The notes under the pieces are model-generated. The model was not told the origin of the DNA. It saw nothing but the letters and a program-made list of their open reading frames with translations, and searched no databases. The translations under genes were made by a program, and so were the position numbers. This document shows positions 7,521 through 63,706 of a stretch of DNA of 64,000 nucleotides, in pieces. Origin of the DNA: Verrucomicrobiota bacterium (GTDB lineage Bacteria > Verrucomicrobiota > Verrucomicrobiia > Verrucomicrobiales > DEV007); contig PKCI01000098.1 in NCBI GenBank assembly GCA_002862135.1, positions 1-64,000 on the forward strand, in the 5' to 3' direction. Within the stretch, counting starts at the first letter, position 1. Each line of letters starts with the position of its first letter.

Positions 7521-10500
7521 CTACCGCTGCGGCGGGGACACTTCGCGGACCAGCGAACCGTGCTCATCGCTCATCACTAGAAGACTTAACTCATCCACGT
7601 GATCCAGCTCATTGGTATTGAGGCTGACATAGTCAAACTCACCCCTGAAATCAGTGTAGCCATCCTTGAAAAAGCGGACATTCCCATCCTTCATCCGCGC
7701 GTAAACTTTGACGTAGGTTTTCGAAACAGGTTTCCCGTCATCTTCGTGTGTCACCGCGAGTCGACCGTATCGCTCTGAAAACTGCACCTTCAGGGCATTC
7801 GAGTAAATCGCGACCGAACTCGTGTTGCCGGCACCAACCACTTCGACCAGCACATTCTTTTTGGCGAACGCCTCCGGCATCTCGATCTTCACACTCCCGT
7901 CTTTACCAGGCAGTTCCATCGTCACCGAAGCATTCGGCTTGATGTAACTGAACTGCCCTTCACCACCGGACACGAAGGGCTGACTCGAAAACAAAAACTC
8001 GAGATCCATCTCGTAGAAATTCACCGTGACTTCATCAAGATTTCGGTAGCCAACCTTGGCTTCACGCCCCTCCGAAGTCAGTTCAAAGTAAGAATCAGAA
8101 GCAGAAAGGCGGTCCATTTTCTGTTCGCGCGTTTCGTCTTCTTCCTCAGCTTCTTCCACTTCGTTCAAACGCTTCGCCATGCTCCCGAACATCGCTCTCC
8201 AACGATCCACAGGATGATCCGCATACTGGTTCGAAATCCGGCGGGCCACTCCCAGCCTCTCCTCAAAGAGAGCCGCGTAGGCAACAAGGTAGTCATATTG
8301 AAGCCGTTCCTCAACTTCGCCTGGCTCAACCGACTCCAGCCAGCTCAAGCCCTCGGCAATGCGATCCTGGAGAAAGAGATAAACAGCTACTGACAAGCGA
8401 TCCTCGGACGAAAACTCAGGCAGGTAAGACAATCCTTTGAGAAAAGCGTTGTACTGCTCCCGGAACCGATCGTTCAGGATTTTTCGTTCCCTTCCCAGCT
8501 GATGAGCCCGGGCATTCACCACAGGCGAGTATTCGAGGTGCTGATACCAGTGACGCTGGACGGGATCAAGACTCACCAGCTCACTATCAATCGCGCCGCC
8601 ACATTGACGAAGGAACCCGTCTCGATGTTTCAGAAACTCCTGAGCCTGCTTCGGCAGGTTGTGGTAGATACCGTAACTCCAGAGAATCTGGTTATAAGCG
8701 TGGCGCTCGGAAATTACCTTGGTGGCCTGCTTGAAAAAGTCGACATTCTCTTTCGCGCGCCAAGCGATTCGGCTCAAGTCGAGGCGTTGAAGATTGTTCT
8801 TTGCCAGGTAGTTGAGGACTTCCTTTTCCGTCCCGAATTGTGACAGGTATTCCCAGGAGGCTTCATCGAACTGCGTCAGCTGATCCACCACTTTGAACAT
8901 TGCCTCTTTGCCGGACGCGATGATCTCCTCGTTCTTCGCAACTTGAACCGGGTAAACATCATACATCGCGTCTCCGGAGTCGTGGGGAAAGTAAAAGAAA
9001 ACCTCGTGGCGCTCGGTTGAAAATGGCCCCAGGTTCAGCGGAAATGATCGGGTATAGTCACTTCCGCTCACAGGGATCGCCCCAGCTGGAATTTGCACGA
9101 GGAGATCGAGCAGATGCGCCGATGAGGTCGGGTTGGTCACGACGACCTGGCCGCCATAGACCACACCAGTGAGAAATTCACTGTTCACAAATTTGTCCAA
9201 CTGCTGACCATTCACGTAGTGATGGCGGTCATCGTGGCGGAAGAAATTCTGGCTCACGAGAATTGGCGTTTCCTCCTCCGAAACCTTTGTCTCCTCAATC
9301 TCTTCATGGAAGATCACCACTGGTGATGCAGCAGTGAGTTTCAAGACTGACTCCTCAACGGTTACTTCATGCTCTTCAGCCTCGAAAGGAAGATCAAGAA
9401 CGCTGAGCGCAAACATGATCTCAGTGAAGTTACTGCTGGCGATAGGAAACTCTCTGGAGTAGAAGCCGCCCTGCCCGTTCCATTCTGCGTAGTCTCTCCA
9501 AAATTCATTCACTTCCACGAGCTCGGCATTCTGCTGATGAATGGGCAGATTATAATAATTGTTTTCGGCCCACTCCTTGGTCGACTCCAGCTTCTCATAC
9601 AAGGCCTGTTGCTGCCCCTGCTGCCGCAGGTTCGCTACGTCCGCTGAATTCGCCAGCGCAGCTGGCGCGGATGAATACGGCGGTATCACACTGAGCGAAC
9701 TCGCCCTTCCTCCAAACCTTTGCCGAGTTGCCACTTCAGCGCTTGATTCAGCTGCGAGCCCCTCTGCCCGATCCAACAATGATTTTGTTCGCACAGCATT
9801 CACTCCCGCAGTGGCAACAACAGTTTCACCTCCCCCAAAAGGGGCCGAAGCAAAAGCATCCACCATGCCCAAATTCAATGATCCCCCGGAACCAGAACTG
9901 GCACTCAATCCTCTCAAAGCGTGACGGAATACCTCGGCACGGCCCACCGGATTCGGAGGAATTAATTCGTGCAAACTCACGACATGATCCGCGGTCCTGC
10001 GCCATTCTTCTTCGCCGGTCCGACGTGCAAGCAGGATGCGCTCGACGATATTGAGGCGACTGTATTCCCAAGGAGCGAGATACGAATTGAGGTCGTCATC
10101 CAGCAAATACCTGTCGATGAAGTTCTTATCCCTCTTGTTAGCCGTGTAGGGCTTCACCACCGCCTCGAAATACCCGGGATCTTTTCGTGATAAAAAGAAA
10201 TTCAATTCGTGGCTGGCATATTCAGAGTAAAGCCCCCGACGGGTCTCCTCGTTTAATTCCGGCCAATCCATCAAGAGCCGAAGACCGTGCAGGTCCTTGT
10301 TGGGATTGATCGCCACAAGAGCATCATAAACTTGACCAATGGTGTCGAAGGTCTGCAACTCGGCAGAGCGAAGATCGTTAATGGTCAGGGTTTCCTCCTC
10401 TTGAAGGAGCGTCACATTGCGACGCTGGGTGAATGACTTCTCCAGATCAAGGGTATTGCGAAGACGCAGGTCGCGGAACTCGGTGCCCCCGTCCGGTTCG

Positions 10501-13500
10501 CCAAGCGGGAGCTGAGCATACGCTGTGTTGTAAGCATCTACTGCAAGCACATGAACATGCTGACGATCACCGAGGTCCTTACTGTCGATTTCAATTCGAC
10601 CGCCTTCCCCTACCTCAAGGTTGGTGATCACAATACCCTGCTGACGCAGGAAGTTGAGGTTGCGCGAGAGATTCGGCACACCACTACCGCCAGAATCCGC
10701 GAGAGGATCTGCTTCGCCTTCACGGCGTTTCGCCTCCTTCATTTCTCCGGAGCGCTCATAGTCTCCGCCTTTCCTGGCTGTCTTAATTTCGGTATCCGTG
10801 TCATTGAGTTCCCACGGATTAAGCAACAGCCCCGGACGAGTCATCAGATTCCCGGGGAACTTTGTCGCCCCACGGCGTTCCAAGATGTAGCGATATTCCT
10901 CACCAATATCGCGACCGGAAACATAACGAGACTCATTAGATCCGCGCGACACGACGAAGGAACCCACCCGGTGCCCCCCGCCTATCTCACGAAACAAATT
11001 CTTTTCAGGAAGGAACCGCGTCGCGACGACATGAACCCTTGTCATCTCGCCCGCATTTACGAGCTCGATTTCAACCTTGCCGTCTTTTTCTGCCAGTCCA
11101 GCAATATACAACGGGGCCACATTGGAAAGACTTAGATGGCGTGAGTCAGAAAGGGCATACCCAGCGCCCTTCTTACTACCGGCCGTGACACGGACATCTA
11201 TTTTCTTGCGGTCTGACCGCAGGACAGCGCGATAGTCGCCGGGCTCAAGATCAGAAATCTTCACGGCTCTTCTTTCATATTTTACATGATCAAAAACATC
11301 CCTGACAATCACCCCATCCCGGACCTCAAACAGAGCCAGATCGCTACGATCCAGCACTGGCCCAACTCGTGGAGCCGGAATCGTTATTACATCTCCGGCT
11401 ACAGCATGAACCACCGAGCCAAGCCACTGGTCATCCCCGGTTAGTCCCCAGGTGCGCGCAACCGAACCGCCACCATCCGCAGTGACCTTTACAATCCCAT
11501 CCAATTCACCTAGGGATATTCTGCCGACAGCATCAGTCTTGAGGGAAAAGTGCCTTGGCAGTTCGAAATCACGGTGATTCAATTTGACCGTCACCGCACG
11601 GTCAGGAAGGACTTCTCCACTCTTACCCAGAACCTCAAGCACGTAGTTCGCCCCCACGCGGCTCAGGTAGGCATCCGACACCGAGACGGTCAGGTCGACC
11701 CCGTTGAGCTCAACTTCCTTGTAAGCTGACAACTGAATCGGTGCGCCCGATGAGCTGACGCTGGGAATCTCTCCTCTAAGTTCGAAACCGATCAAGGAGA
11801 CCCGGTTCGGAACGCGGAAGCGATGGATCGATTCACGATCATCAAAAAGCTCAAAGTCGGAAGCAGAACTCTTTGACTCAATGCCGTCATGATCCAGGGT
11901 CGAAACAATTAGCTGAACGTTTTCGAGAACACTTGCGGGAACGGGAGCCCCGTTCACGCTCAGAACAGGCCTCACCGAAAGCTCCGCTTCCATTCCCGGT
12001 AGGAGAGTCTCCTGCTCAAGAATCCCCCCCATTTCAAAGTGATACCCCTCCTCTGGAAGATCAATCCGGTCAAAGCTGGACATCTCTCCGTCACTCAGGA
12101 CAATATCTACCTCACCCTTGGTGGAAAATGGCAACAGGATCTGTCCGTCCGCGTTAGCAGTATACTCTTTACCGCCGAACCAGATGGAAGCTTTCTCCAC
12201 AAGCGCATTCGCTTCATCGAACACAGACACCAGCTCACCGCCCGGTGTCGATTCAGAGAGGTATTGGAGTTTGCCTTTGCGAACGAGGGCACGTGAGCTG
12301 ATTCCATTTCCGATGAACTCGATTACCCAGACACCTCGGCGATTCTTCAATGTATCAAAGGAGAAGGCCTCCCGATGCCGCAGAATCGGAGCCTGATCAT
12401 AACGGTAGGTCAGCTCCTCATTGGCGATAAGGCCATCAAGCTTTAGATCAGTGTTAATCTCCCGCTCTTGGTCGAGGTAATAGTTGAGAGAGTTGATTTC
12501 GTAGACTTTGACGATCAATTCACTAACATTCTTTAAATCGAGAGCCAGATTAACGTCATCTTTCACCGCGAACTCGGCGGCATTGACCGGAGCAAATGAA
12601 ATTTCGATTCGATCCTTGATCGCCTGGACCCGTCCCGGAGACAGCATGGAAAACCAGCGCTGCGCATCTCCAATCCCATGGAGCAATTTCGCCTCAGCAA
12701 ATACACTCTTGAGATAGCTCTCCCTGACAAAGGGAGAGAAGCGGTTGTAGTTTTCATCCTCCTTAAGAAAGTGTTCAAGATATGCCCTCACGAGAGGCTC
12801 ATCATTCCGAATCGGTCCGAAGCCAATTTGTTTCGAAAAGTTTTCACCTATGTTTGCCGTGAATCCTTTCAGTTCCCGCCGCTGCAGATATCTCGGCTCC
12901 ACGTAGTGCACTGCCCTGGGCAGAGCCAGGTAATCCATGAACAGTTCAGACGGATACTCACCCCGTTTGTGGGCGAGTTCCAGCTTCTGGTAAAGCACGT
13001 TGGCTTTCAATGAGCTAAATACCGGATCGAGTCCTCTCACGTAGCTCCACAATCTGTCGATGTAGGCGCTTTTTGTCTCAAGACTTAGCTCGATTGATTC
13101 GTCCTCACCCGGTCGCAGCTTTGACAACTTGATGTCAACAAAGCGCGGGTCGTTGGCCAGCTGAGGGCGCAGTTCCACCAACTCGTCCAATTGCGCAGTC
13201 GTAAGTTCCCGATGAATCGGAAGAGAACCGAATGCCTGGGGCGATGGACTGCGCAGGTCTGCAGCAATCAACCCTACCAGTCGCTCATAGTCGGGATGCT
13301 TGAGCCGACGAAGAAGATCTTTTTGCTGAGCGTCCGTAATTTTCACTTCCTCCCGTAGGATCCGGTCGAGACCGCTATCGAGGACGCCCTGCAGGTTTTT
13401 ATACCTGCGTTTGGTGTCATCGAAATACGCGTTCCAGGTAATCTTGTCAGGATCGATCGTAGAGGGCAGATCCGGCTTACGATCAAGTCGTTCCTGCTGG

Positions 13501-13880
13501 TGGTTAAATCTCAGCCCCAGGATTTGCTTCAAATAGTTGAGAGACTTGTCCGGCGACTCACGATACTCAAGGAGAGTTTGGCGATTGAGAATTTCCCGAT
13601 ACCGTGGTGTTTCCCCATGTTTATTGTTCCACGGTTCGAGAAAGGTTGCCACATCGTCGAGCCGCCCCTCCTGCTGGGCGACTAGCGCCGAATAGTAATA
13701 GAAATCTTCGGTCCCCGGGATCAGTTCTTGCAGGGCATCCGCGCGGTCTTCAGCAAGGGCAAAGGTTTCCAGAAAACCAATCGTGTCGATTGCGCTGGCA
13801 CTTCGTGCACCAATAGCAGCAGCAGATATGACCAAAACGGTCCCAGTGAGCCGTGAAACGGAACGGAGCGGAATATTCAT
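7521..13880 (-). CDS. very large secreted protein with alpha-2-macroglobulin/MG-like beta-sandwich segments
   Basis: 2119 aa; N-terminal signal peptide; helical-repeat-like N-terminus; repeated beta-sandwich regions (e.g. LLPGMEAELSVRPVLSVNGAPVPASVLENVQLIVSTLDHDG). No CxEQ thioester motif seen. Confidence 0.6.
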   Translation of the reverse strand: MNIPLRSVSRLTGTVLVISAAAIGARSASAIDTIGFLETFALAEDRADALQELIPGTEDFYYYSALVAQQEGRLDDVATFLEPWNNKHGETPRYREILNRQTLLEYRESPDKSLNYLKQILGLRFNHQQERLDRKPDLPSTIDPDKITWNAYFDDTKRRYKNLQGVLDSGLDRILREEVKITDAQQKDLLRRLKHPDYERLVGLIAADLRSPSPQAFGSLPIHRELTTAQLDELVELRPQLANDPRFVDIKLSKLRPGEDESIELSLETKSAYIDRLWSYVRGLDPVFSSLKANVLYQKLELAHKRGEYPSELFMDYLALPRAVHYVEPRYLQRRELKGFTANIGENFSKQIGFGPIRNDEPLVRAYLEHFLKEDENYNRFSPFVRESYLKSVFAEAKLLHGIGDAQRWFSMLSPGRVQAIKDRIEISFAPVNAAEFAVKDDVNLALDLKNVSELIVKVYEINSLNYYLDQEREINTDLKLDGLIANEELTYRYDQAPILRHREAFSFDTLKNRRGVWVIEFIGNGISSRALVRKGKLQYLSESTPGGELVSVFDEANALVEKASIWFGGKEYTANADGQILLPFSTKGEVDIVLSDGEMSSFDRIDLPEEGYHFEMGGILEQETLLPGMEAELSVRPVLSVNGAPVPASVLENVQLIVSTLDHDGIESKSSASDFELFDDRESIHRFRVPNRVSLIGFELRGEIPSVSSSGAPIQLSAYKEVELNGVDLTVSVSDAYLSRVGANYVLEVLGKSGEVLPDRAVTVKLNHRDFELPRHFSLKTDAVGRISLGELDGIVKVTADGGGSVARTWGLTGDDQWLGSVVHAVAGDVITIPAPRVGPVLDRSDLALFEVRDGVIVRDVFDHVKYERRAVKISDLEPGDYRAVLRSDRKKIDVRVTAGSKKGAGYALSDSRHLSLSNVAPLYIAGLAEKDGKVEIELVNAGEMTRVHVVATRFLPEKNLFREIGGGHRVGSFVVSRGSNESRYVSGRDIGEEYRYILERRGATKFPGNLMTRPGLLLNPWELNDTDTEIKTARKGGDYERSGEMKEAKRREGEADPLADSGGSGVPNLSRNLNFLRQQGIVITNLEVGEGGRIEIDSKDLGDRQHVHVLAVDAYNTAYAQLPLGEPDGGTEFRDLRLRNTLDLEKSFTQRRNVTLLQEEETLTINDLRSAELQTFDTIGQVYDALVAINPNKDLHGLRLLMDWPELNEETRRGLYSEYASHELNFFLSRKDPGYFEAVVKPYTANKRDKNFIDRYLLDDDLNSYLAPWEYSRLNIVERILLARRTGEEEWRRTADHVVSLHELIPPNPVGRAEVFRHALRGLSASSGSGGSLNLGMVDAFASAPFGGGETVVATAGVNAVRTKSLLDRAEGLAAESSAEVATRQRFGGRASSLSVIPPYSSAPAALANSADVANLRQQGQQQALYEKLESTKEWAENNYYNLPIHQQNAELVEVNEFWRDYAEWNGQGGFYSREFPIASSNFTEIMFALSVLDLPFEAEEHEVTVEESVLKLTAASPVVIFHEEIEETKVSEEETPILVSQNFFRHDDRHHYVNGQQLDKFVNSEFLTGVVYGGQVVVTNPTSSAHLLDLLVQIPAGAIPVSGSDYTRSFPLNLGPFSTERHEVFFYFPHDSGDAMYDVYPVQVAKNEEIIASGKEAMFKVVDQLTQFDEASWEYLSQFGTEKEVLNYLAKNNLQRLDLSRIAWRAKENVDFFKQATKVISERHAYNQILWSYGIYHNLPKQAQEFLKHRDGFLRQCGGAIDSELVSLDPVQRHWYQHLEYSPVVNARAHQLGRERKILNDRFREQYNAFLKGLSYLPEFSSEDRLSVAVYLFLQDRIAEGLSWLESVEPGEVEERLQYDYLVAYAALFEERLGVARRISNQYADHPVDRWRAMFGSMAKRLNEVEEAEEEDETREQKMDRLSASDSYFELTSEGREAKVGYRNLDEVTVNFYEMDLEFLFSSQPFVSGGEGQFSYIKPNASVTMELPGKDGSVKIEMPEAFAKKNVLVEVVGAGNTSSVAIYSNALKVQFSERYGRLAVTHEDDGKPVSKTYVKVYARMKDGNVRFFKDGYTDFRGEFDYVSLNTNELDHVDELSLLVMSDEHGSLVREVSPPQR

Positions 13881-32504: not shown

Positions 32505-35255
32505 TCAATCTTGATCTCCCTGAGGCTTTCTCCCGGGAAGAAGCGGCAGGATGCGCTGTTTCTCTTTCTCCTGCCCGTTGGCTCCATCATTGCTACGTTG
32601 TTCTTTTGACCCGAATATGCCCTGACCGAATACCCTCAACTCTTCACCGGGTTTCAATTCAGGCGGAACCATGTTTACTTCCTCCCGTTCAGCACCACCA
32701 CCACTGCCCTCGCTGGACTGGCCGAGGATTCCTTCGCCAATCGCCTTCAAGCCCTCAAATGGGATCTGGGTCATTTCGATAATAACCTGAGCCGGGAGCT
32801 TGCCGATATTTGAGATGTGCTTGGCCTTCCAAACCGGTTCCTGAACTGTTCCTTCACATGAGAAGGTGAGCAATTCACTCACCGGGGTAAGCAAAGTTCT
32901 CGAAATCGTCCCCTTAGTATTCACTACAGCTTCAAAGTCCACAGACTGGTCGATCAGCGAAACTGTTCCAGCACTTCTGACAAGCATAGTATCGGCAAGC
33001 GCCACGAGGTCATCAGTCTTCAGAACACCACTGGAAATTTTAAATGTCGCCTGGGCTTCCTTCGCAATTCCCCCATCGGAATCGGACACCTGCATCACGC
33101 CCGCCAACGCGCCCAGCAGCGGCAGGGTAAATAATTCACCTTCTTCAATCGACGCCGCACCGTGCCCGTTCAATCGGCTGACATCCTCCCCAAATCCGGA
33201 AAGATGAAATACCGCATCAATCAGGCCGGTAGCTACTTCAAGATCTCCATATGTCCTCGTCAAAGCCTCAAGAGGAACGCGACTCACCTTCACCGACGCA
33301 TGATATGGTTTCTCCTCCGAACGAACATTGAGAGCGTCATATTCAACTTCAACCTTGCCGCCAAACAGACCTGCTGAAAATTCCGTCAAGTGCATACGAC
33401 TCCCTGAAATCTCAAGCACTCCCGAGGGTTCAATTAAAGTCAAAGCCCCCCCGAGAAAGTCATAATCAGCCTGCCCACCACTCGCAAACGAGATCGTAAG
33501 CTCGTTATTTCGGGGCTCGTCTCCAACCTCCTCTATCCTTCGCGAATCGAGGAAGCCCGCAAGTTTAACAGTTGGCGGAAACTCAAACCGGTATTTCTCA
33601 ATTTGCTTTGAAAGCTTGGGACTAAAAGCCCGGGTCCCCATGATGAGATCAAGGGTTGATACGACGCCTTTTACCTCCCACAGGCTCTTCGCAGGCATGT
33701 AGTGAGCCATTTCAGCCACAATTTCACCTTCATAACGCCCTAACACAATATCCTCGAACCAAAGCTGGCCGTCCTTTGCCTCGAATTCAGCTTCCATTTC
33801 CCTGAACTCAACGCCCTTGAGATAGAAATTTCTCAAGTCCAAAACCCCCTTGTTGATCCAGGTGTTAAGATCCCAGTTCTCGCCTTCTCCAACAGCCGCG
33901 AGATAGACTGCTGAGTTTTCGGTGAACTCCCATGAATCGAGAAACTTGCGGCCGCCATCATCGAAGAACGGCCGGAACACGTGGGGATCCAGCTTGATCT
34001 CCGTGTGATACTGAATGCTCTGCCCTCCCGAACCGGGCTCATACTTAAAATTCGCAAAGGCGAAACCACTCTTGTGGTCCAGGCGCAAGTTCCTAACATA
34101 CACCTTTTCGCCCTCAGCACTGAACCCAAAATCCAAACCAGCAAAGACCATACCACGCGTAACGAAACGATCAGATTTGAACTGCCCCATTACAGTCCCG
34201 GGGAATTTCCAGGTGGCACGCCCCAACTCGTCGAGGTTCAGCTCACCCTTCATTTCGATCTCAGGAGGTTTAAAGAAGACGACCTCACCCAGCTTTCGAT
34301 CCTTCCAGAAAAAACCAAGCAGACTTGAGATATCGGCGTTGGATCTCAAATCAAATTCAAAGCGACCGTCATCCAGGAACCACGTGCCGGTAAGATCGAT
34401 ATCACCCTTTTGATCCCGGATATTGATATTCTCGATCTCCGCCTGATTTGAAATGCCATCAAAACGAAACACAGCACTCAACCCGTCTACATGGTAGTCG
34501 CTGCCGACCCGGCTTAGCCTACTCGATTCCACCCAGGCCCGGGCAGTGATGGTCGAGAGATCATCTAGGTCTCCCCGGAACTCGATCCCAACCTGGGGTG
34601 AGCCGTCGAGAAACTCAAGGCGCTCAAGTTCATCGATCACCTTGCTGATTTGAAAGTTTGTCGCGGCCAGCTGCTCCACATTATTTTCAATTCGTTCCTC
34701 ACCGGGCGCGTCCTCGTCTCGCGAAGCCCTAACGAGCGTACCAGCGATGTTAAGATCCACATTCGCCACAGTCGCAGCAACAGATACAATCTCGATCATG
34801 CTTTCGGTGACGACGATCCGACCGGAAAGATTTTCTATTTTCAGCTTTTTGCCGCCCGGATCTGCCAAGTCCAGCGGAAGTGAAAGACTGGCGTCTGCCA
34901 CATCGAGAGTATTTATTGATATCTCTTTGTTCAGGATCTTGCTCAGATCGACATCGAGATACACATCATCAACGATCGCAATTTCGAAGTTCTTTTCAGG
35001 ATCCTGGAAAAACTGGATATCTTCCGCGACCAGGCCCCGGAATGCTCCCAGCGTGATTTTTCCTATCTCAACATAGTAGCCCCGCTGCTCGAATTCAGCT
35101 TCTATAGCATTGCGCCAACTTTCGGTAAACCCGTTCTTCCTAGCATAGATCCCTGCCCAGATAACAACCCCTGTGAGAATCAGGCAGAGAAACAGGAACA
35201 ATCTTCGAATCCAACGCATCATTTGTTGATATAGGGACCAATCACGAAATTTCAT
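32505..35255 (-). CDS. large AsmA/DUF3971-like membrane-anchored protein
   Basis: N-terminal TM (RLFLFLCLILTGVVIWAGIY), long beta-rich body, DLEVATGLIDAVFHLSGFGEDVSRLNGHGAASIEEGELFTLPLLGALAGVM. Likely start ATG 35255; track ORF starts 35330. Confidence 0.8.
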   Translation of the reverse strand: MKFRDWSLYQQMMRWIRRLFLFLCLILTGVVIWAGIYARKNGFTESWRNAIEAEFEQRGYYVEIGKITLGAFRGLVAEDIQFFQDPEKNFEIAIVDDVYLDVDLSKILNKEISINTLDVADASLSLPLDLADPGGKKLKIENLSGRIVVTESMIEIVSVAATVANVDLNIAGTLVRASRDEDAPGEERIENNVEQLAATNFQISKVIDELERLEFLDGSPQVGIEFRGDLDDLSTITARAWVESSRLSRVGSDYHVDGLSAVFRFDGISNQAEIENINIRDQKGDIDLTGTWFLDDGRFEFDLRSNADISSLLGFFWKDRKLGEVVFFKPPEIEMKGELNLDELGRATWKFPGTVMGQFKSDRFVTRGMVFAGLDFGFSAEGEKVYVRNLRLDHKSGFAFANFKYEPGSGGQSIQYHTEIKLDPHVFRPFFDDGGRKFLDSWEFTENSAVYLAAVGEGENWDLNTWINKGVLDLRNFYLKGVEFREMEAEFEAKDGQLWFEDIVLGRYEGEIVAEMAHYMPAKSLWEVKGVVSTLDLIMGTRAFSPKLSKQIEKYRFEFPPTVKLAGFLDSRRIEEVGDEPRNNELTISFASGGQADYDFLGGALTLIEPSGVLEISGSRMHLTEFSAGLFGGKVEVEYDALNVRSEEKPYHASVKVSRVPLEALTRTYGDLEVATGLIDAVFHLSGFGEDVSRLNGHGAASIEEGELFTLPLLGALAGVMQVSDSDGGIAKEAQATFKISSGVLKTDDLVALADTMLVRSAGTVSLIDQSVDFEAVVNTKGTISRTLLTPVSELLTFSCEGTVQEPVWKAKHISNIGKLPAQVIIEMTQIPFEGLKAIGEGILGQSSEGSGGGAEREEVNMVPPELKPGEELRVFGQGIFGSKEQRSNDGANGQEKEKQRILPLLPGRKPQGDQD

Positions 35256-35393
35256 GACCTCCCCAGGTAGAAACCATCCCTGCATTCTGCCGCCTTCTCC
35301 AGTAAAAAAGGAGGCTGCAAGAGCCCTCAACCGTTGAATTAACGATTGGAGAGGCTCGTTCCTTGGGATAATCTTTCACCTCTCATTCAGCCC

Positions 35394-54154: not shown

Positions 54155-54231
54155 CGGGACGTGGCGCAGTCTGGTAGCGCACCACAATGGGGTTGTGGGG
54201 GTCGCTGGTTCGAATCCAGTCGTCCCGACCA
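54155..54231 (+). tRNA. tRNA-Pro (anticodon GGG), CCA encoded
   Basis: CGGGACG...CGTCCCG acceptor stem, D arm GCGC...GCGC, anticodon stem CCACA/TGTGG with loop ATGGGGT, T arm GCTGGTTCGAATCCAGT(C), ACCA. Confidence 0.96.
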
Positions 54232-55631: not shown

Positions 55632-56056
55632 TTGTCGGTTCATACCATAAAAAGCATTTCGATACCTGAAACACACCCAGACCCTGCTTCGGCAAACTTG
55701 CCATCCACCAGTTCCCACTGGCCGGAAACCGAGAAAAAGATCCAGATAAAATGCATAGCAGCCATTTTTAACGGCATCGACACTCACATCTTCAAGCCCC
55801 GCCGCGAGCCAGTTAGAACCGGCTTTGCCGTCAGTCCCAGGGGCTACCTCGTAACCTGCTACCACGTCATCCACGAAGCCGAACGCATTGTTGTATGCTC
55901 GCTGAACGCAGCCTTGCCGCTCAGGTTGCCGCCCTCGACCCTCGCAACAATCTCGCTATCATAAAAGGGGGCTGGAACGGCTCTTTATCCCTCCAGTCGC
56001 ATTCTCGCGACCTCGCGCTATATTCGAGACGCGGTGGCAAAGCGAAAACAGCCTGA
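55632..56056 (+). pseudogene. trypsin-like (S1/HtrA-like) serine protease remnant, frameshifted and truncated
   Basis: Frame 1 reads RTGFAVSPRGYLVTCYHVIHEAERIVVCSL; after a -1 shift near 55900 it continues ERSLAAQVAALDPRNNLAIIKGGWNGSLSLQ, stop at 56054-56056. No GNSGGP segment. Confidence 0.7.
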
Positions 56057-59000
56057 AGGCGAACCCGGGCGCCGACCTTCCCCCGAGAGCATCCTGCGCT
56101 GGCTGATCAGATTCCTGATCAGATCAGTCAGTTTCGGTGTGATCACGCTGATCCTCGCCTGTCTCATTGCCTGGATTAGTTACGTCAATCGAACCCGCAT
56201 CGTAAACGAAGTCCTCGACCGTTACGTCGAGCCATTTGAAGCATCGATGGAGTCCATCGACCTCTGGCCACTTGGCGAGGTCAAAATCAAGAATCTGACC
56301 CTCTCCCCGAAGGGCACCGCTTCCGATTCTTTGCTGGCATCCGTTCCAGACCTCCACCTCACCTACGACTTTCAACAGCTGCGCGACCAGCAACGGTTGC
56401 AATCCGTCCGAATTCACCAACCGGACATCAACATCAACCAGGATCACATCGATGCACTGACCCGGGCCCAGCCTTCCGAGCCGTCAGGAAAAATCGATCT
56501 CGGCGCGTTTGATCTCTTCACCGAAGCTCTCGAAATCATGGGAGGCAATGTCATTGTTAAACTCCCCACCTTTGCGACCGTTCAAACCGAACTCGACTTT
56601 CAAAGCGAGCGGCTTACCTTCACCGAAGACGGACTCACCGAATCGCCCCTCTCCATCAATCTTAAGAATCTGCGCGTCGCCGAACGAGGGACCCTTGGCA
56701 ACGTTTCGGTCACGTTTCACCTCGGACGCGATCTGAAGACTTTCGACGTCACCGAGATCTCCCTCGATTCCCTTACCACTGAAATCACACCAGACTGGAT
56801 CGAGGCTCAGGAAGCTCGCGAACAGGTGGCAGCTGCCAGCAATGATTCGAGAGAGTTCAGTGAAGCACCCGCCCCTGTTGAATTGATCATCCGGAATGTC
56901 CACGTGGGCGACTCCTCGATTTCCGTCACCGGATTTGATGGAACGGACGGTCTACCCTCATTTCCTGACATCGCCTTCGACACTCATTTTGAAGGAAAGA
57001 ACTTTTGCTTCTCCAACGGCCGGTGGACGAGTAATGAGCCCGTAAACCTTACTCTCTCCAACGTGACTCTGGGAACCGGGCACACCCAGTTGCTCACCGT
57101 TGATCAACTGGAGCTCTCAGCCAACTCGCTCGAGTCACTAGTCCACGACCAAACCGTGGACACAGCGACCATCGAAGGAATCGACGTCTTCATCTCCGAC
57201 GCCTCCCTGGATCGGCTCAGGACAGAACGGGAAACAACTGAAGCGGAAGAAACGAGTGACCAGTCCGCCTCCCCTTCCCCCTGGACGCTGGGGAGCCTGA
57301 CCCTCTCCGAAGGCAACTTTATCCTCCGCGACGCAAGCTTTGCCAACCAGCCGGCTGCGGAAATGGAAGCCCGCTTCAACGCCACCCTGTCGGCTCTGAA
57401 TTTCAGCAGTGAAGGTTTCACCTCTGAAGGAAACCAAATTCTTGAGCTGAATCAGGCCCGAGTCAGAGCTCCCGGATCCGATCCTTCAGAGACTCCGCTT
57501 CTGTCTTTCAAACTCGGCACGCTTTCCGGCAAATGGTCCGAATTCGACTTCGACAATACGATTCAGTCCGTCACCCTGTTTGAACCTTCCATTAATTTGA
57601 CCAATGCATCGCTGGGAAACTGGCTTCAGCCCGGGCCTTCCTCAAGAGAGTCCGGCCCGATTAACTGGCCGGTTTACAGGATTGTCGATCTACAGGTCGA
57701 CCGTGGCAACCTTGTGGCGGACTCAAGCTTCGCCGAAGGGATAGTGCCCAAGATCCATTCCGACTTCTCCATCAAAACTCAAGACGACGCCGACAATCCA
57801 TTCTCATACCTACTCAAGCTGAGCGACTTTAATCTCCGCAACCACCCGGTCTATTACGAGCCGGCAGGACCTCCAGATCCGTCGACCTTCGGCCCGAACG
57901 GTAAACCGGTCGTCAACTTCACCCCGGTAGCAGAGGAGGAGGTCATTAAGATCCGAGAAATCGAAGTTCACGCGAATGCAAGCGGCGTCCAGCGCGACCG
58001 GAAGGTCGATAAGGTAAAAGTCAGTGGCGCCCTGCTTCGCGTCGGCGAAGGACTCAAATCTATCGCAGAGACTTCCTCCAAATCTGAAGATAAAAAAGAA
58101 GAACAGCCTCGGGCAGCCGTCGAAGAGAAACTTCCCGAGTGGCTCCTCAGCGAAGTTGAGATCACGCAAAGCCAGGTCGAGTTCGACGCGCTCATTCCGC
58201 AGATCAACGGCCTCCAGTTTGCCATCGAAACAAACCTGTCAGATGTGCCACTTTCGATCGACGGCCTCATCACCCAGGACAAGCTTCAGAAAGTCGAGCT
58301 TGCCGGCATCGAGATCAAAGATCCTTATAATTCCTTCATTACCGTCGCCTTTCTCCCGACCATCTTTGTTGAGTTTTCTCTCGCAGGCCTCGCCAACCAG
58401 GAGATTGAAAAGATCGACTTGATCAATCCGGCCCTGCATGTTGGTCAGGGTCTCTTCTGGTGGGTCGACTACCAGCGCAACTTCCGCTCCCAGAATGAAG
58501 GTGTCAGTGTCGGCATCGAAGAAGGTAGCAGATTCACTTCCGATCCGCCGCTGCCGGTTCCAGAGCTGGACCAAACACGTCGAAGCACCCCCGACTGGGT
58601 CATCAAGACCATCAATGCGACCGCTGGAAAGATCGTCATTGCTCCTACTGGTGTCCCCATTGGCATAGTCCCCTTTCCCTTCAACGCGACGACAAACATG
58701 AGGGGCGGGAATATCGATCTAAAGCTCACCATCCCCGGGGAAGACTACGTCTACGAGTTTCCCGAATACAAAGTGAACCTCTACGGTCTTACCGGTGACG
58801 TGCAGTTCAATGTGCCGGTAAAGAAAGTCGACAACAATCTGGTCCAGACGTTCACCCTGCGACGTGCCTTATGGAGGCAATATGAGGCTGAAGATCTCTA
58901 CCTGTCCGTCACCTTTGACTCCGAGGGTATCTATGGCAGCCTCGGCGGCAACGCCTACGACGGATACGTCGAGGGTCAGTTCAATTTCTACCTCAACGAT

Positions 59001-59498
59001 CCCGGCAAGTGGGACGCCTGGATCGCCGGTTCAAATTTCAATACCGGTCCGCTGACACGGGTGATTGTTCCCGACAATTTCCTCATGGAAGGCAACGTCT
59101 CCATGAAACTTATCTCTGAAGGGCGCGACAAGACACTCGGCAAAACGTCCGGTGAATTCTCCTCCACCTCTGCGGGATGGTTCGACATCACCAAGTTTGA
59201 TCAAATCCTCGAAGAAATGCCGCCAGAGTGGAGCAACCTCCAGCGCGAATTGACCAAGCTTGGTCTCATTGCCCTGAAACGATTTGATTATGAGCAGGGC
59301 GCCGGTAGTCTCTACCTGAATGGACGTGAGGGCGATCTTCAGCTCCGCTTCGCAGGCGAATACGGCACCCGCGAACTGAAGTTGCACCTTCACGACCAGC
59401 GCAATCCGGAGGCCAAAGCCGATGGACCCGGCGACGAACCTAACGAATCTCCTCCTGTGCCCGCGGCCGTGGCAAAACCTGTCGCAGCCAGCCGCTAA
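56034..59498 (+). CDS. giant AsmA/YdbH-like protein (predicted inter-membrane bridge)
   Basis: 1154 aa; N-terminal TM VSFGVITLILACLIAWISYV; AsmA-like beta-rich body; C-terminal ...LIALKRFDYEQGAGSLYLNGREGDLQLRFAGEYGTRELKLHLHDQRNPE. GTG start. Confidence 0.8.
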   Translation: MAKRKQPEGEPGRRPSPESILRWLIRFLIRSVSFGVITLILACLIAWISYVNRTRIVNEVLDRYVEPFEASMESIDLWPLGEVKIKNLTLSPKGTASDSLLASVPDLHLTYDFQQLRDQQRLQSVRIHQPDININQDHIDALTRAQPSEPSGKIDLGAFDLFTEALEIMGGNVIVKLPTFATVQTELDFQSERLTFTEDGLTESPLSINLKNLRVAERGTLGNVSVTFHLGRDLKTFDVTEISLDSLTTEITPDWIEAQEAREQVAAASNDSREFSEAPAPVELIIRNVHVGDSSISVTGFDGTDGLPSFPDIAFDTHFEGKNFCFSNGRWTSNEPVNLTLSNVTLGTGHTQLLTVDQLELSANSLESLVHDQTVDTATIEGIDVFISDASLDRLRTERETTEAEETSDQSASPSPWTLGSLTLSEGNFILRDASFANQPAAEMEARFNATLSALNFSSEGFTSEGNQILELNQARVRAPGSDPSETPLLSFKLGTLSGKWSEFDFDNTIQSVTLFEPSINLTNASLGNWLQPGPSSRESGPINWPVYRIVDLQVDRGNLVADSSFAEGIVPKIHSDFSIKTQDDADNPFSYLLKLSDFNLRNHPVYYEPAGPPDPSTFGPNGKPVVNFTPVAEEEVIKIREIEVHANASGVQRDRKVDKVKVSGALLRVGEGLKSIAETSSKSEDKKEEQPRAAVEEKLPEWLLSEVEITQSQVEFDALIPQINGLQFAIETNLSDVPLSIDGLITQDKLQKVELAGIEIKDPYNSFITVAFLPTIFVEFSLAGLANQEIEKIDLINPALHVGQGLFWWVDYQRNFRSQNEGVSVGIEEGSRFTSDPPLPVPELDQTRRSTPDWVIKTINATAGKIVIAPTGVPIGIVPFPFNATTNMRGGNIDLKLTIPGEDYVYEFPEYKVNLYGLTGDVQFNVPVKKVDNNLVQTFTLRRALWRQYEAEDLYLSVTFDSEGIYGSLGGNAYDGYVEGQFNFYLNDPGKWDAWIAGSNFNTGPLTRVIVPDNFLMEGNVSMKLISEGRDKTLGKTSGEFSSTSAGWFDITKFDQILEEMPPEWSNLQRELTKLGLIALKRFDYEQGAGSLYLNGREGDLQLRFAGEYGTRELKLHLHDQRNPEAKADGPGDEPNESPPVPAAVAKPVAASR

Positions 59499-59506
59499 AG
59501 ATCGAA

Positions 59507-60049
59507 ATGACAGCCCTACGAACACGGAACCGAAACATCTCCGCCCTCGCCGTCGCGATGGCAGGAGCTCCCGTGCTCACTTCCTGCGTACCGACCTTCG
59601 ACGTCGACGTCAACACGCCTGAACCAATAAAGGTCGACCTGTCCATGGACGTCCACGTTTACCAGCACGGCGGTTCTGACAAGGAGAATACCGAGAAGCA
59701 GGCCTCCTACCGAGCCACCATGGATTCACGCCGCGACCGCATGGCCGAGATCCAGGAGCTCAAAAACAACCGCTTAGTCGGGGAAAATCACCTCGGAAAA
59801 CTTACCCTGCGCAACCGGCCGGCCGGCGAATATGGCGACTACGTCGAGGACACCGTCGAAGACGAAAATCGCGACCGTGAATTCCTGATGCGTCACGAAG
59901 CTGAAGACAAAGGCGTCGCTCTCGCTAGCATTCGTGAGGAGCAATGGCATCACTGGCAACGCAAATCGTTCCCCGGTGAATGGATCGAAGTCGATGCCAC
60001 GGACGGCAATGGATACGAATGGCAGCAGAAGCAGGCCGCTGACCAGTAA
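59507..60049 (+). CDS. lipoprotein fusing YnbE-like and YdbL/DUF1318-like modules
   Basis: 180 aa; lipobox LTSC then CVPTFDVDVNTPEPIKVDLSMDVHVYQ (YnbE-like), then IQELKNNRLVGENHLGKLTL...NRDREFLMRHEAEDKGV...SFPGEWIEVDATDGNGYEWQQK (DUF1318-like). Confidence 0.75.
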   Translation: MTALRTRNRNISALAVAMAGAPVLTSCVPTFDVDVNTPEPIKVDLSMDVHVYQHGGSDKENTEKQASYRATMDSRRDRMAEIQELKNNRLVGENHLGKLTLRNRPAGEYGDYVEDTVEDENRDREFLMRHEAEDKGVALASIREEQWHHWQRKSFPGEWIEVDATDGNGYEWQQKQAADQ

Positions 60050-60394: not shown

Positions 60395-62431
60395 ATGCGA
60401 CAAATCTTGGTCACATCTGCTCTGCCCTACGCCAATGGCCCGATCCACATCGGCCACTTGGTCGAGTATTTGCAAACTGATATCTGGGTGCGTTTTCAGA
60501 AGATGATGGGCAACCGTTGCATCTACATCTGTGCCGACGACACCCACGGCACAGCTATTTCCCTCCGCGCTCAAAAAGAAGGACGCAGCGAAGAGGATCT
60601 CATCGCTGAAATGAGCGAAGCTCACCAGCGTGACTTTGCCGGCTTCAACATCAAGTTTGATAATTATGGCTCCACCAACAGCGAAGAAAGTCGCAAATTC
60701 TGTCACGAAATCTGGCAGTCCCTGCGCGAGGCCGACATGGTCGTGGAACAAGACATCGACCAACTCTTCGACGTCGAGAGAGGCGTCTTCCTGGCCGACC
60801 GTTTTGTCCGCGGGACCTGCCCGGTTTGCGGCTCAGAAGACCAGCCCGGTGACAACTGCGACAAGTGCAACGCCACCTACTCTCCAGCGGAACTGATCGA
60901 TCCGGTCAGTAGCTTGTCAGGATCAACCCCCGAGATTCGCTCCGCGAAACATCTCTTCGTGCAGATTGAAAAGCTGCATGACTTTCTCGCTGAATGGACC
61001 CAGTCCGGCACCCTGCCACCTGAAAGCGCCAACTACCTCAAAAATTTCTTTCTCAACGAACCACTCCGCGACTGGGATATTTCCCGCCCTGGCCCCTATT
61101 TCGGTTTCGAGATTCCGGATTCTCCCGGCAACTACTGGTATGTATGGTTCGATGCCCCGATTGGTTACATCGGCTCCACCCAGCAGTGGTGCGATACCAA
61201 TGGCGAGAAGATCGAAGACTGGTGGAAAAGCGACCAGACCGAAATTCACCATTTCATTGGTAAGGATATTCAGTATTTCCACACCCTCTTCTGGCCGGCC
61301 ATGCTCAAGACGGCAGGATTCTCTTTGCCGACAAAAGTGCACATCCATGGCTTTCTCACCGTCGATGGCGAAAAGATGTCCAAGTCCCGCGGGACCTTTG
61401 TCGAAGCGTCCAAGTATCTCGAGCACCTCGACCCTAGCTACCTGCGCTATTACTACGCGACGAGGCTGTCCTCCAAGGTCGAAGATCTCGACCTCAATCC
61501 CAATGAGTTCGTTTCCAAGATCAACAGCGACCTCGTCGGCAAGGTGGTTAACCTAGCCAGTCGCACGGCGAAGTTCATCAAGGATACCGGGCTCTCCGCC
61601 GAATACCCTGACGATGGCGGGCTCTTCGAAAATTTTGCCGGACTCGGCAGCGAAATTGCCGAAGCCTACGAGGCCGGCGACTTCAGCAAGGCGATGCGCA
61701 TGATCATGGAACTGGCAGATCAGGCCAATCCCTTCGTCGAGAACAACGCTCCCTGGGAGCTCCGCAAAGATCCTGACAAAGCACAAGAGCTGCAGGATGT
61801 CTGCACTGTGGCCCTCAATCTTTTCCGAACACTCGTTATCTACCTCTCTCCGGTCCTTCCCAACCTTGCAGAGAAAGCCGGCGAACTGCTCGGTGAAGAC
61901 CTGAACTCATGGGAACTCGCCCAGAACCCGGTCACCAGACGCTCGATTGCGAAGTTCAAGCACATGATGCAACGCGTCGACCCGAAAAAAATCGAAGCCA
62001 TGATCGAAGAATCCAAGGAAGAGAACGAAGCCGAAATCAACAGCCTGCCGGCTGGCAACTGGGACGATTCCGATGAAGCCATCAAGGCTGACCCGATCGC
62101 CGACGAGATCTCCATCGACGATTTCTTCAAGTCCGACCTGCGCGTTGCCCGCATCGTGGCCGCCAACGAAGTGCCCGAAGCCCGCAAGCTGGTTCAGCTC
62201 ACCCTGAACCTTGGCGGAGACGAAACCCGCAACGTGTTTGCCGGGATCAAATCCGCCTACCAGCCCGAGGAACTCGTCGGACGCCTCGTTGTCATGGTCG
62301 CCAACCTCGCGCCGCGCAAGATGAAGTTCGGTGTCAGCGAAGGCATGATCGTTGCCAGTGGTCCCGGCGGGAAAGACATCTTCCTGCTCTCACCGGATGA
62401 TGGTGCCGTGCCCGGTCAGCGCGTGGGATAA
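60395..62431 (+). CDS. metG: methionine--tRNA ligase with C-terminal tRNA-binding (Trbp111-like) domain
   Basis: 678 aa; [56 protein letters not shown]-terminal [33 protein letters not shown]. Confidence 0.98.
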
Positions 62432-62677: not shown

Positions 62678-63706
62678 GTGAGTTTTCAGCTAAAGAAGAA
62701 AAAGTTCTACCCCGTGACCTCAGGGCTATCGAGCTACCTCGACCACTTCCAGCGGTCGTTTGACATTCCCGTGGTCTACGAAGACCTGCACCGCTTCTCC
62801 CAGCTTTTCCCACTCTACGACCGCGATGGTAAAGACACTCTCTGGAAGACTGTTCACTATGAGCCCTCCATTCGCGAGGAACTCAGCCAGAAACTGATCC
62901 GTATCTACTCGCTGATCAAAACTAACGATATCCGCGCGGGCGATCACCTCGTCATGGAGCGAGTTGACTTCTGCGACTTCGGCAACTCACGGCCCTTCCG
63001 CGTCCGTATCGTGAATCAATACAACGATAACTACGATCACTTTTACGTGAAGATTGCGGATGCCTCGCGAATCTATGGCCTCGAGCTCGAACACATTCTC
63101 TCCCCGAATCGAATCAACTACCTCGTCAATGGAGACACGCTGATCGAGGAACACATTGCCGGTGTTCCTGGGGATGTCTTCATTCGAGATTACTTCGAGC
63201 GCGACGAGACCAACCTCACACGCGTGGCTAAGGAGTTCATCAAGTTCAACGAGCGCTCCTTCACCCGCCTCCTCGGCGACATGCGAAGCTACAACTACGT
63301 GGTCGACATCACGCCCGACTTCGAGGACGCCCAATACCGTGTCAGGGCTATCGACTTTGACCAGCAGAGCTACGAGGGTTACAAGGAGATGTATCTCCCC
63401 CAGTTCTTTTTCGAGAACGCCCTTGTGGTCGAGCTTTGCACCAAGCGGATCAACTTCCAGACTCGCAAGCAATACCAAGATGAGGAACGCACTCTCATCC
63501 GGCGCCGCTGCCGACTCGCCCGTGGTCGTCTCGCTGCTTTCTGGGAAGCCATGTGCGACGTGGAAATCGCGCCCGAGGAGCATGTCCTGCAATTGCGAGA
63601 ACAGCTGAACCAATACCACAGTTCGGAGGCTTTCTCAGAATGCGAAACCATGGGCCAACTTGTCCGCCAAAATGTCGAGGTAACGCTCGTCAAGGCGGAC
63701 CTCTGA
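62678..63706 (+). CDS. hypothetical protein with degenerate APH/protein-kinase-like motifs
   Basis: 342 aa; LIEEHIAGVPGDVFIRDYF (hinge-like), LLGDMRSYNYVVD (catalytic-loop-like), YRVRAIDFDQQS (DFG-like). GTG start. Confidence 0.6.
   Translation: MSFQLKKKKFYPVTSGLSSYLDHFQRSFDIPVVYEDLHRFSQLFPLYDRDGKDTLWKTVHYEPSIREELSQKLIRIYSLIKTNDIRAGDHLVMERVDFCDFGNSRPFRVRIVNQYNDNYDHFYVKIADASRIYGLELEHILSPNRINYLVNGDTLIEEHIAGVPGDVFIRDYFERDETNLTRVAKEFIKFNERSFTRLLGDMRSYNYVVDITPDFEDAQYRVRAIDFDQQSYEGYKEMYLPQFFFENALVVELCTKRINFQTRKQYQDEERTLIRRRCRLARGRLAAFWEAMCDVEIAPEEHVLQLREQLNQYHSSEAFSECETMGQLVRQNVEVTLVKADL

Follow-up and report, generated by a model that had tools for sequence, protein, structure and literature searches.

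A lipoprotein joining YnbE-like and YdbL domains, encoded next to a diverged YdbH-like giant in Verrucomicrobiota

It has long been asked how phospholipids are delivered to the outer membrane; the YdbH-YnbE bridge is among the few answers, and the role of YdbL is the least clear part of that bridge. Kumar, Davis and Ruiz (PNAS 2024) are said to have suggested that YdbL keeps YnbE from multimerising in an uncontrolled way. The locus described here lies in a 64,000-nt stretch of DNA (hereafter the window) from a Verrucomicrobiales (Verrucomicrobiota) MAG of 3.48 Mb and 92% completeness, where a giant AsmA-like ORF is followed by a lipoprotein ORF that a preliminary description had read as YnbE and YdbL in one polypeptide. 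Phospholipid homeostasis depends on YdbH, TamB and YhdP, which are essential for it yet redundant with one another (PMC8593681). The outer-membrane lipoprotein YnbE is an interaction partner of YdbH (PMC12977461), and the contact between them is proposed to be β-strand augmentation (PMC12045153).

The layout given in the preliminary description, a 1154-aa ORF separated by 8 bp from a 180-aa ORF with the lipobox LTSC, is correct by coordinates (Table 1), and the two frames differ. An ORF reading as methionyl-tRNA synthetase (metG) lies downstream of the lipoprotein gene, at 60395. The two-part lipoprotein ORF is unbroken in dozens of independent genomes (53/96) and is therefore not a sequencing artefact. 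Elsewhere, the window carries a putative secreted protein of 2119 aa (7521-13880, minus strand) and, 3′ of metG, a 342-aa ORF (62678-63706, plus strand), both without a Pfam match, as well as the sole tRNA detected in it, a tRNA-Pro (ggg) at 54155-54231 on the plus strand.

Table 1. Coordinates of the giant, the lipoprotein and their parts in the window.
Feature	Position	Strand	Basis
YdbH-like AsmA/repeating-β-groove giant	56034..59498	+	ORF, GTG start, 1154 aa
N-terminal transmembrane anchor of giant, residues ~27-52	56112..56189	+	hydrophobic stretch inside predicted helix 17-51
Giant C-terminal region, residues ~888-1108, aligning with YdbH C-terminal domain	58695..59357	+	hhalign
Last high-confidence predicted β-strand of giant, residues 1111-1119	59364..59390	+	AF2 secondary structure
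Fused YnbE-YdbL lipoprotein	59507..60049	+	ORF, ATG start, 180 aa; relatives in 53/96 genomes
Lipoprotein signal peptide ending LTS/C	59507..59584	+	sequence; Cys27 unchanged in all 28 aligned fused proteins
YnbE-like segment, residues 27-56: lipidated Cys and predicted augmentation strand	59585..59674	+	profile E 3.9e-4
Linking helix, residues 57-87	59675..59767	+	AF2 helix, pLDDT mostly >90
YdbL/DUF1318 domain	59738..59992	+	PF07027 match over residues 78-162; core folded over 57-175

The C-terminal half of the lipoprotein is firmly assigned to YdbL/DUF1318 by sequence and predicted fold. PF07027 (DUF1318) matches it with an E value of 2.4e-7 and 31.6 bits, above its cut-off of 27 bits, and likewise matches all 28 fused relatives in the family alignment (A2). 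An AF2 model of the 180-aa protein, built from a 28-sequence alignment, has a mean pLDDT of 85, with values above 95 across most of residues 71-170, and its YdbL part is rigid. The single significant PDB match found for this model with Foldseek was 28OJ (TM 0.84 by target, E 1.5e-4, 20% identity), the crystal structure of E. coli YdbL deposited under the title 'Probable chaperone-like protein YdbL'. Moreover, the A2 family profile finds the 28OJ sequence (E 2.7e-11). The DUF1318/YdbL-like segment anticipated in the preliminary description is thus confirmed. No second signal peptide precedes the YdbL part, which is joined to the lipoprotein and is not a separate soluble periplasmic protein.

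Profile chains, position across the phylum and the lipobox-strand pattern support the N-terminal half as YnbE-like. Cys27 of the lipobox (codon 59585-59587) is followed by CVPTFDVDVNTPEPIKVDLSMDVHVYQH, and the YnbE pattern, a lipobox Cys and then a P-I-x-[IV]-x-[ML]-x-[VM] strand, is present as Cys27 plus PIKVDLSMDVHV. Residues 29-54 are nearly invariant across the window's genus. The Pfam scan gave no match to PF13617 (YnbE, Lipoprotein_19) in the window lipoprotein, and this model was above its cut-off in 0/195 genomes of the phylum. In these 195 genomes, 15 of 43 sub-threshold PF13617 matches sit 37-238 bp upstream of a same-strand DUF1318 match, against about 0.004 expected by chance from a simple calculation; four of the 15 share one open frame with DUF1318. 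Because PF13617 misses the window protein, the YnbE assignment rests on intermediate relatives. A profile made from split YnbE genes alone recovered YnbE of E. coli (E 8e-5) together with the best fused proteins of the order (E 1e-4 to 2e-3); its match to the window protein was weak (E 0.6), yet ranked above all 1,202 decoy ORFs. When fused proteins of other lineages were added, with the window's own clade excluded, the window protein reached 0.049, and after further extension with the rest of the fused relatives from outside the order it reached 3.9e-4, with every one of the 1,202 decoys above 6. Direct similarity between the window segment and E. coli YnbE was marginal (p 0.02), and hhalign against short single-sequence YnbE targets returned weak values with an erratic permutation null and was given no weight. 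In the AF2 model, where the protein is modelled alone, the segment is disordered (pLDDT ~65), which fits a strand that becomes ordered only upon docking to its partner. Both halves of the lipoprotein thus match profiles, and the resemblance to YnbE after the Cys holds, since profiles from relatives rank the segment with E. coli YnbE above the decoys.

The giant's sole notable Pfam match is DUF748, in its central part and below the cut-off (E 6.4e-9). PF11739 (YdbH) matched neither the window giant nor any of the 13 giants scanned from the order. This model does match 19 of the 20 giants found upstream of YnbE-YdbL in the phylum's other families (best 4e-31), and by this profile criterion those proteins are bona fide YdbH. 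When the window-type C-terminus was compared with these PF11739-positive relatives by hhalign, a match of 96.1% was obtained (E 3.5e-9, 211 collinear columns) with a score of 75.1, the maximum over 100 column permutations being 30.3. The controls taken from related genomes, TamB (0.6%) and AsmA/YhdP-like proteins (1.9%), gave no match in the profile comparison, and the ORF thus does not group with TamB or YhdP. Since PF11739 misses the window giant, its YdbH assignment rests on intermediate relatives, and on these profile comparisons it is a diverged YdbH-like protein unrecognised by the Pfam YdbH model. Its description as a YdbH-like AsmA protein therefore stands for the C-terminus, but is not borne out by the Pfam model. 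The C-terminus is devoid of the helix-like tail (PLNxLL) typical of other YdbH relatives. In the AF2 model (mean pLDDT 75.6), the N-terminal helix 17-51 is followed by a long, continuous series of β-strands. Foldseek ranked LPD-3, a bridge-like lipid-transfer protein, first for this model (E 1.4e-18, prob 1.00); TamB and Atg2 were matched as well, with prob about 1. The last high-confidence strand is presumed to be the edge where the YnbE strand would dock. We also considered, and rejected, the idea that the YnbE strand mimics this last strand: the overall signal was weak, with a median z of 0.8 versus 0.15 for a control region, and it was absent in the window.

A second AsmA-like protein of 941 aa, with similarity to AsmA (6e-8) and to the YhdP C-terminal domain (1.4e-6), is encoded at 32505-35330 on the minus strand and is a candidate redundant bridge. 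Most members of the genus have TamB (PF04357), but searches of the window's genome and of two relatives (G011 and G021) did not find it; with the window's genome 92% complete, its absence there is not certain.

Of 96 genomes surveyed from the order, 53 encode the fused lipoprotein and 55 the giant, and the lipoprotein is always accompanied by the giant (53/53; Fisher p 4e-25, kinship ignored). Both genes lie on one contig in 43 of these 53 genomes and on different contigs in the other 10. In several of the unlinked cases both genes are well inside their respective contigs, so the two stay paired even without the operon. At loci L075, L085, L086, L087 and L088 the fused lipoprotein gene stands apart, the giant of that genome being encoded on a different contig. 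Neither gene was found in the Akkermansia-like genomes among the 96.

The survey of fused versus split genes proposed in the preliminary description was run within Verrucomicrobiota and covered 79 DUF1318 loci, of which 19 come from the window's order and 60 from across the phylum. A YnbE-like lipoprotein was found at all 79, fused in 37 and encoded by a separate gene just upstream in 42; in the 42 split loci, YdbL keeps its own signal peptide. All DUF1318 loci examined from the window's order are fused, and three families (f18, f23 and f34) hold both states. A search of named genomes with the window protein returned 25 loci, all from Verrucomicrobiota MAGs or isolates. The joining of the two small partners into one polypeptide, a single intact ORF in the window, thus recurs in related bacteria. 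The architecture is distinct in that it differs from the split E. coli genes, but it is not unique to this genome, being found at all loci examined from the order and in several other lineages.

The fused state requires four changes on the DUF1318 tree and four on the tree of the giant's C-terminus. The AU test rejected a single fused clade on the latter (p 0.015), but gave no rejection when only the DUF1318 domain was used (p 0.14 and 0.30). It is likely, though not proven, from these trees that the fusion arose at least twice. The trees are unrooted and the direction of change between split and fused cannot be read from them; by analogy with E. coli, the split state would be ancestral. An acidic motif, FF[GDSA][DEG][LI]D, follows the YnbE strand in 29 of 42 split YnbE and in 0 of 37 fused proteins (raw counts, kinship ignored); it may mark a binding site for free YdbL or simply the site of linker insertion. 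In one small-genome family of the class, genomes carry two DUF1318 copies (G157; also G131, G142 and G235). Both copies of G157 (L130 and L144) are fused YnbE-YdbL, and L144 has no YdbH-like gene upstream.

The locus probably encodes an inter-membrane phospholipid bridge of the YdbH-YnbE-YdbL type, with YnbE and YdbL as one polypeptide. The giant would be anchored in the inner membrane and span the periplasm with a hydrophobic β-groove, a fold taken from the model, its role in transport being that expected of the family. The lipoprotein would be held by its lipidated Cys27 in what is presumably the outer membrane, and its YnbE strand (about residues 31-52) would, as proposed for E. coli, join the giant's last strand by β-augmentation and lengthen the groove. 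The YdbL domain, carried at the end of a 31-residue helix, would act in cis at 1:1 stoichiometry, and could stop the aggregation-prone YnbE strand from stacking on more copies before docking. The lipoprotein would then carry its own modulator through a cis-chaperone step, much as the preliminary description had supposed. Somewhat short of an even chance, in our judgement, is the fuller proposal of a self-chaperoning bridge anchor, in which each YdbL domain would cover, in cis, the YnbE strand of its own chain, so that no more than one or a few strands would build the outer-membrane end of the groove, and in which fusion each time made dispensable the acidic FFxDLD motif of free YnbE, the proposed docking site of free YdbL.

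Other readings of the same data have to be weighed. The fusion may merely secure equal amounts and outer-membrane placement of YdbL, and the mechanism would be the old one, YdbL working in trans on adjacent YnbE strands like the free protein of E. coli. Related lineages hold both split and fused forms beside the same neighbours, so their function is probably the same, as this account requires; however, the distribution of the acidic motif, with the same disregard of kinship, hints that the engagement between YdbL and YnbE has changed, and we consider the account rather unlikely. More doubtful still is a giant that is a generic AsmA/DUF748 protein rather than a YdbH orthologue, the lipoprotein pair having been recruited to a different bridge. 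The collinear C-terminal match to PF11739-positive giants, the same operon position and the complete co-occurrence with YnbE-YdbL all speak for YdbH, against DUF748 as the sole significant Pfam match, the failure of PF11739 on the order's giants (0/13) and their long branch in the giant tree. It is very improbable that the N-terminal segment is a mere lipid tether which does not dock on the giant, leaving the work to the YdbL domain. Such a tether could well be short, disordered in the model and missed by PF13617, but the near invariance of residues 29-54, the profiles that tie the segment to split and E. coli YnbE, and the presence of either the segment or a separate YnbE with every DUF1318 gene examined argue against it. 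A bridge of the YdbH-YnbE-YdbL type thus remains our preferred reading.

This finding extends the YdbH-YnbE-YdbL system to Verrucomicrobiota, where none was described in the literature searched. Nor was a YnbE-YdbL fusion described in that literature, which did not cover the PNAS 2024 YdbH-YnbE paper. The recurrent joining suggests that the second helper, YdbL, acts directly on the first, YnbE, and provides Rosetta-stone evidence of direct mutual action from outside Proteobacteria. Moreover, the fused protein offers a single-chain construct for structural studies, and with the fusion one can probe both stoichiometry and whether free YnbE has a docking motif for YdbL.

Among known systems, the eukaryotic bridge-like lipid-transfer proteins LPD-3/BLTP1 and Atg2 share the repeating β-groove fold, but have no lipoprotein partners and serve other membranes. 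DUF748 and other AsmA-like proteins resemble the giant through the weak match of its central part to DUF748; to our knowledge, they do not pair with YnbE-YdbL. TamAB and the Bacteroidota TamL-TamB also combine an AsmA-like groove with an outer-membrane partner, and TamL is likewise lipid-anchored (PMC12045153). However, that partner is a β-barrel, and the window giant has no profile similarity to TamB. E. coli ydbH-ynbE-ydbL differs in that YnbE and YdbL are separate proteins, YdbL having its own signal peptide, and in that YdbH, the namesake of PF11739, is 879 aa long whereas the window giant, missed by that model, has 1154 aa. The two loci nevertheless share the order of AsmA-like bridge, YnbE lipoprotein and YdbL with very short intergenic gaps, the lipobox followed by a short strand, and the YdbL fold.
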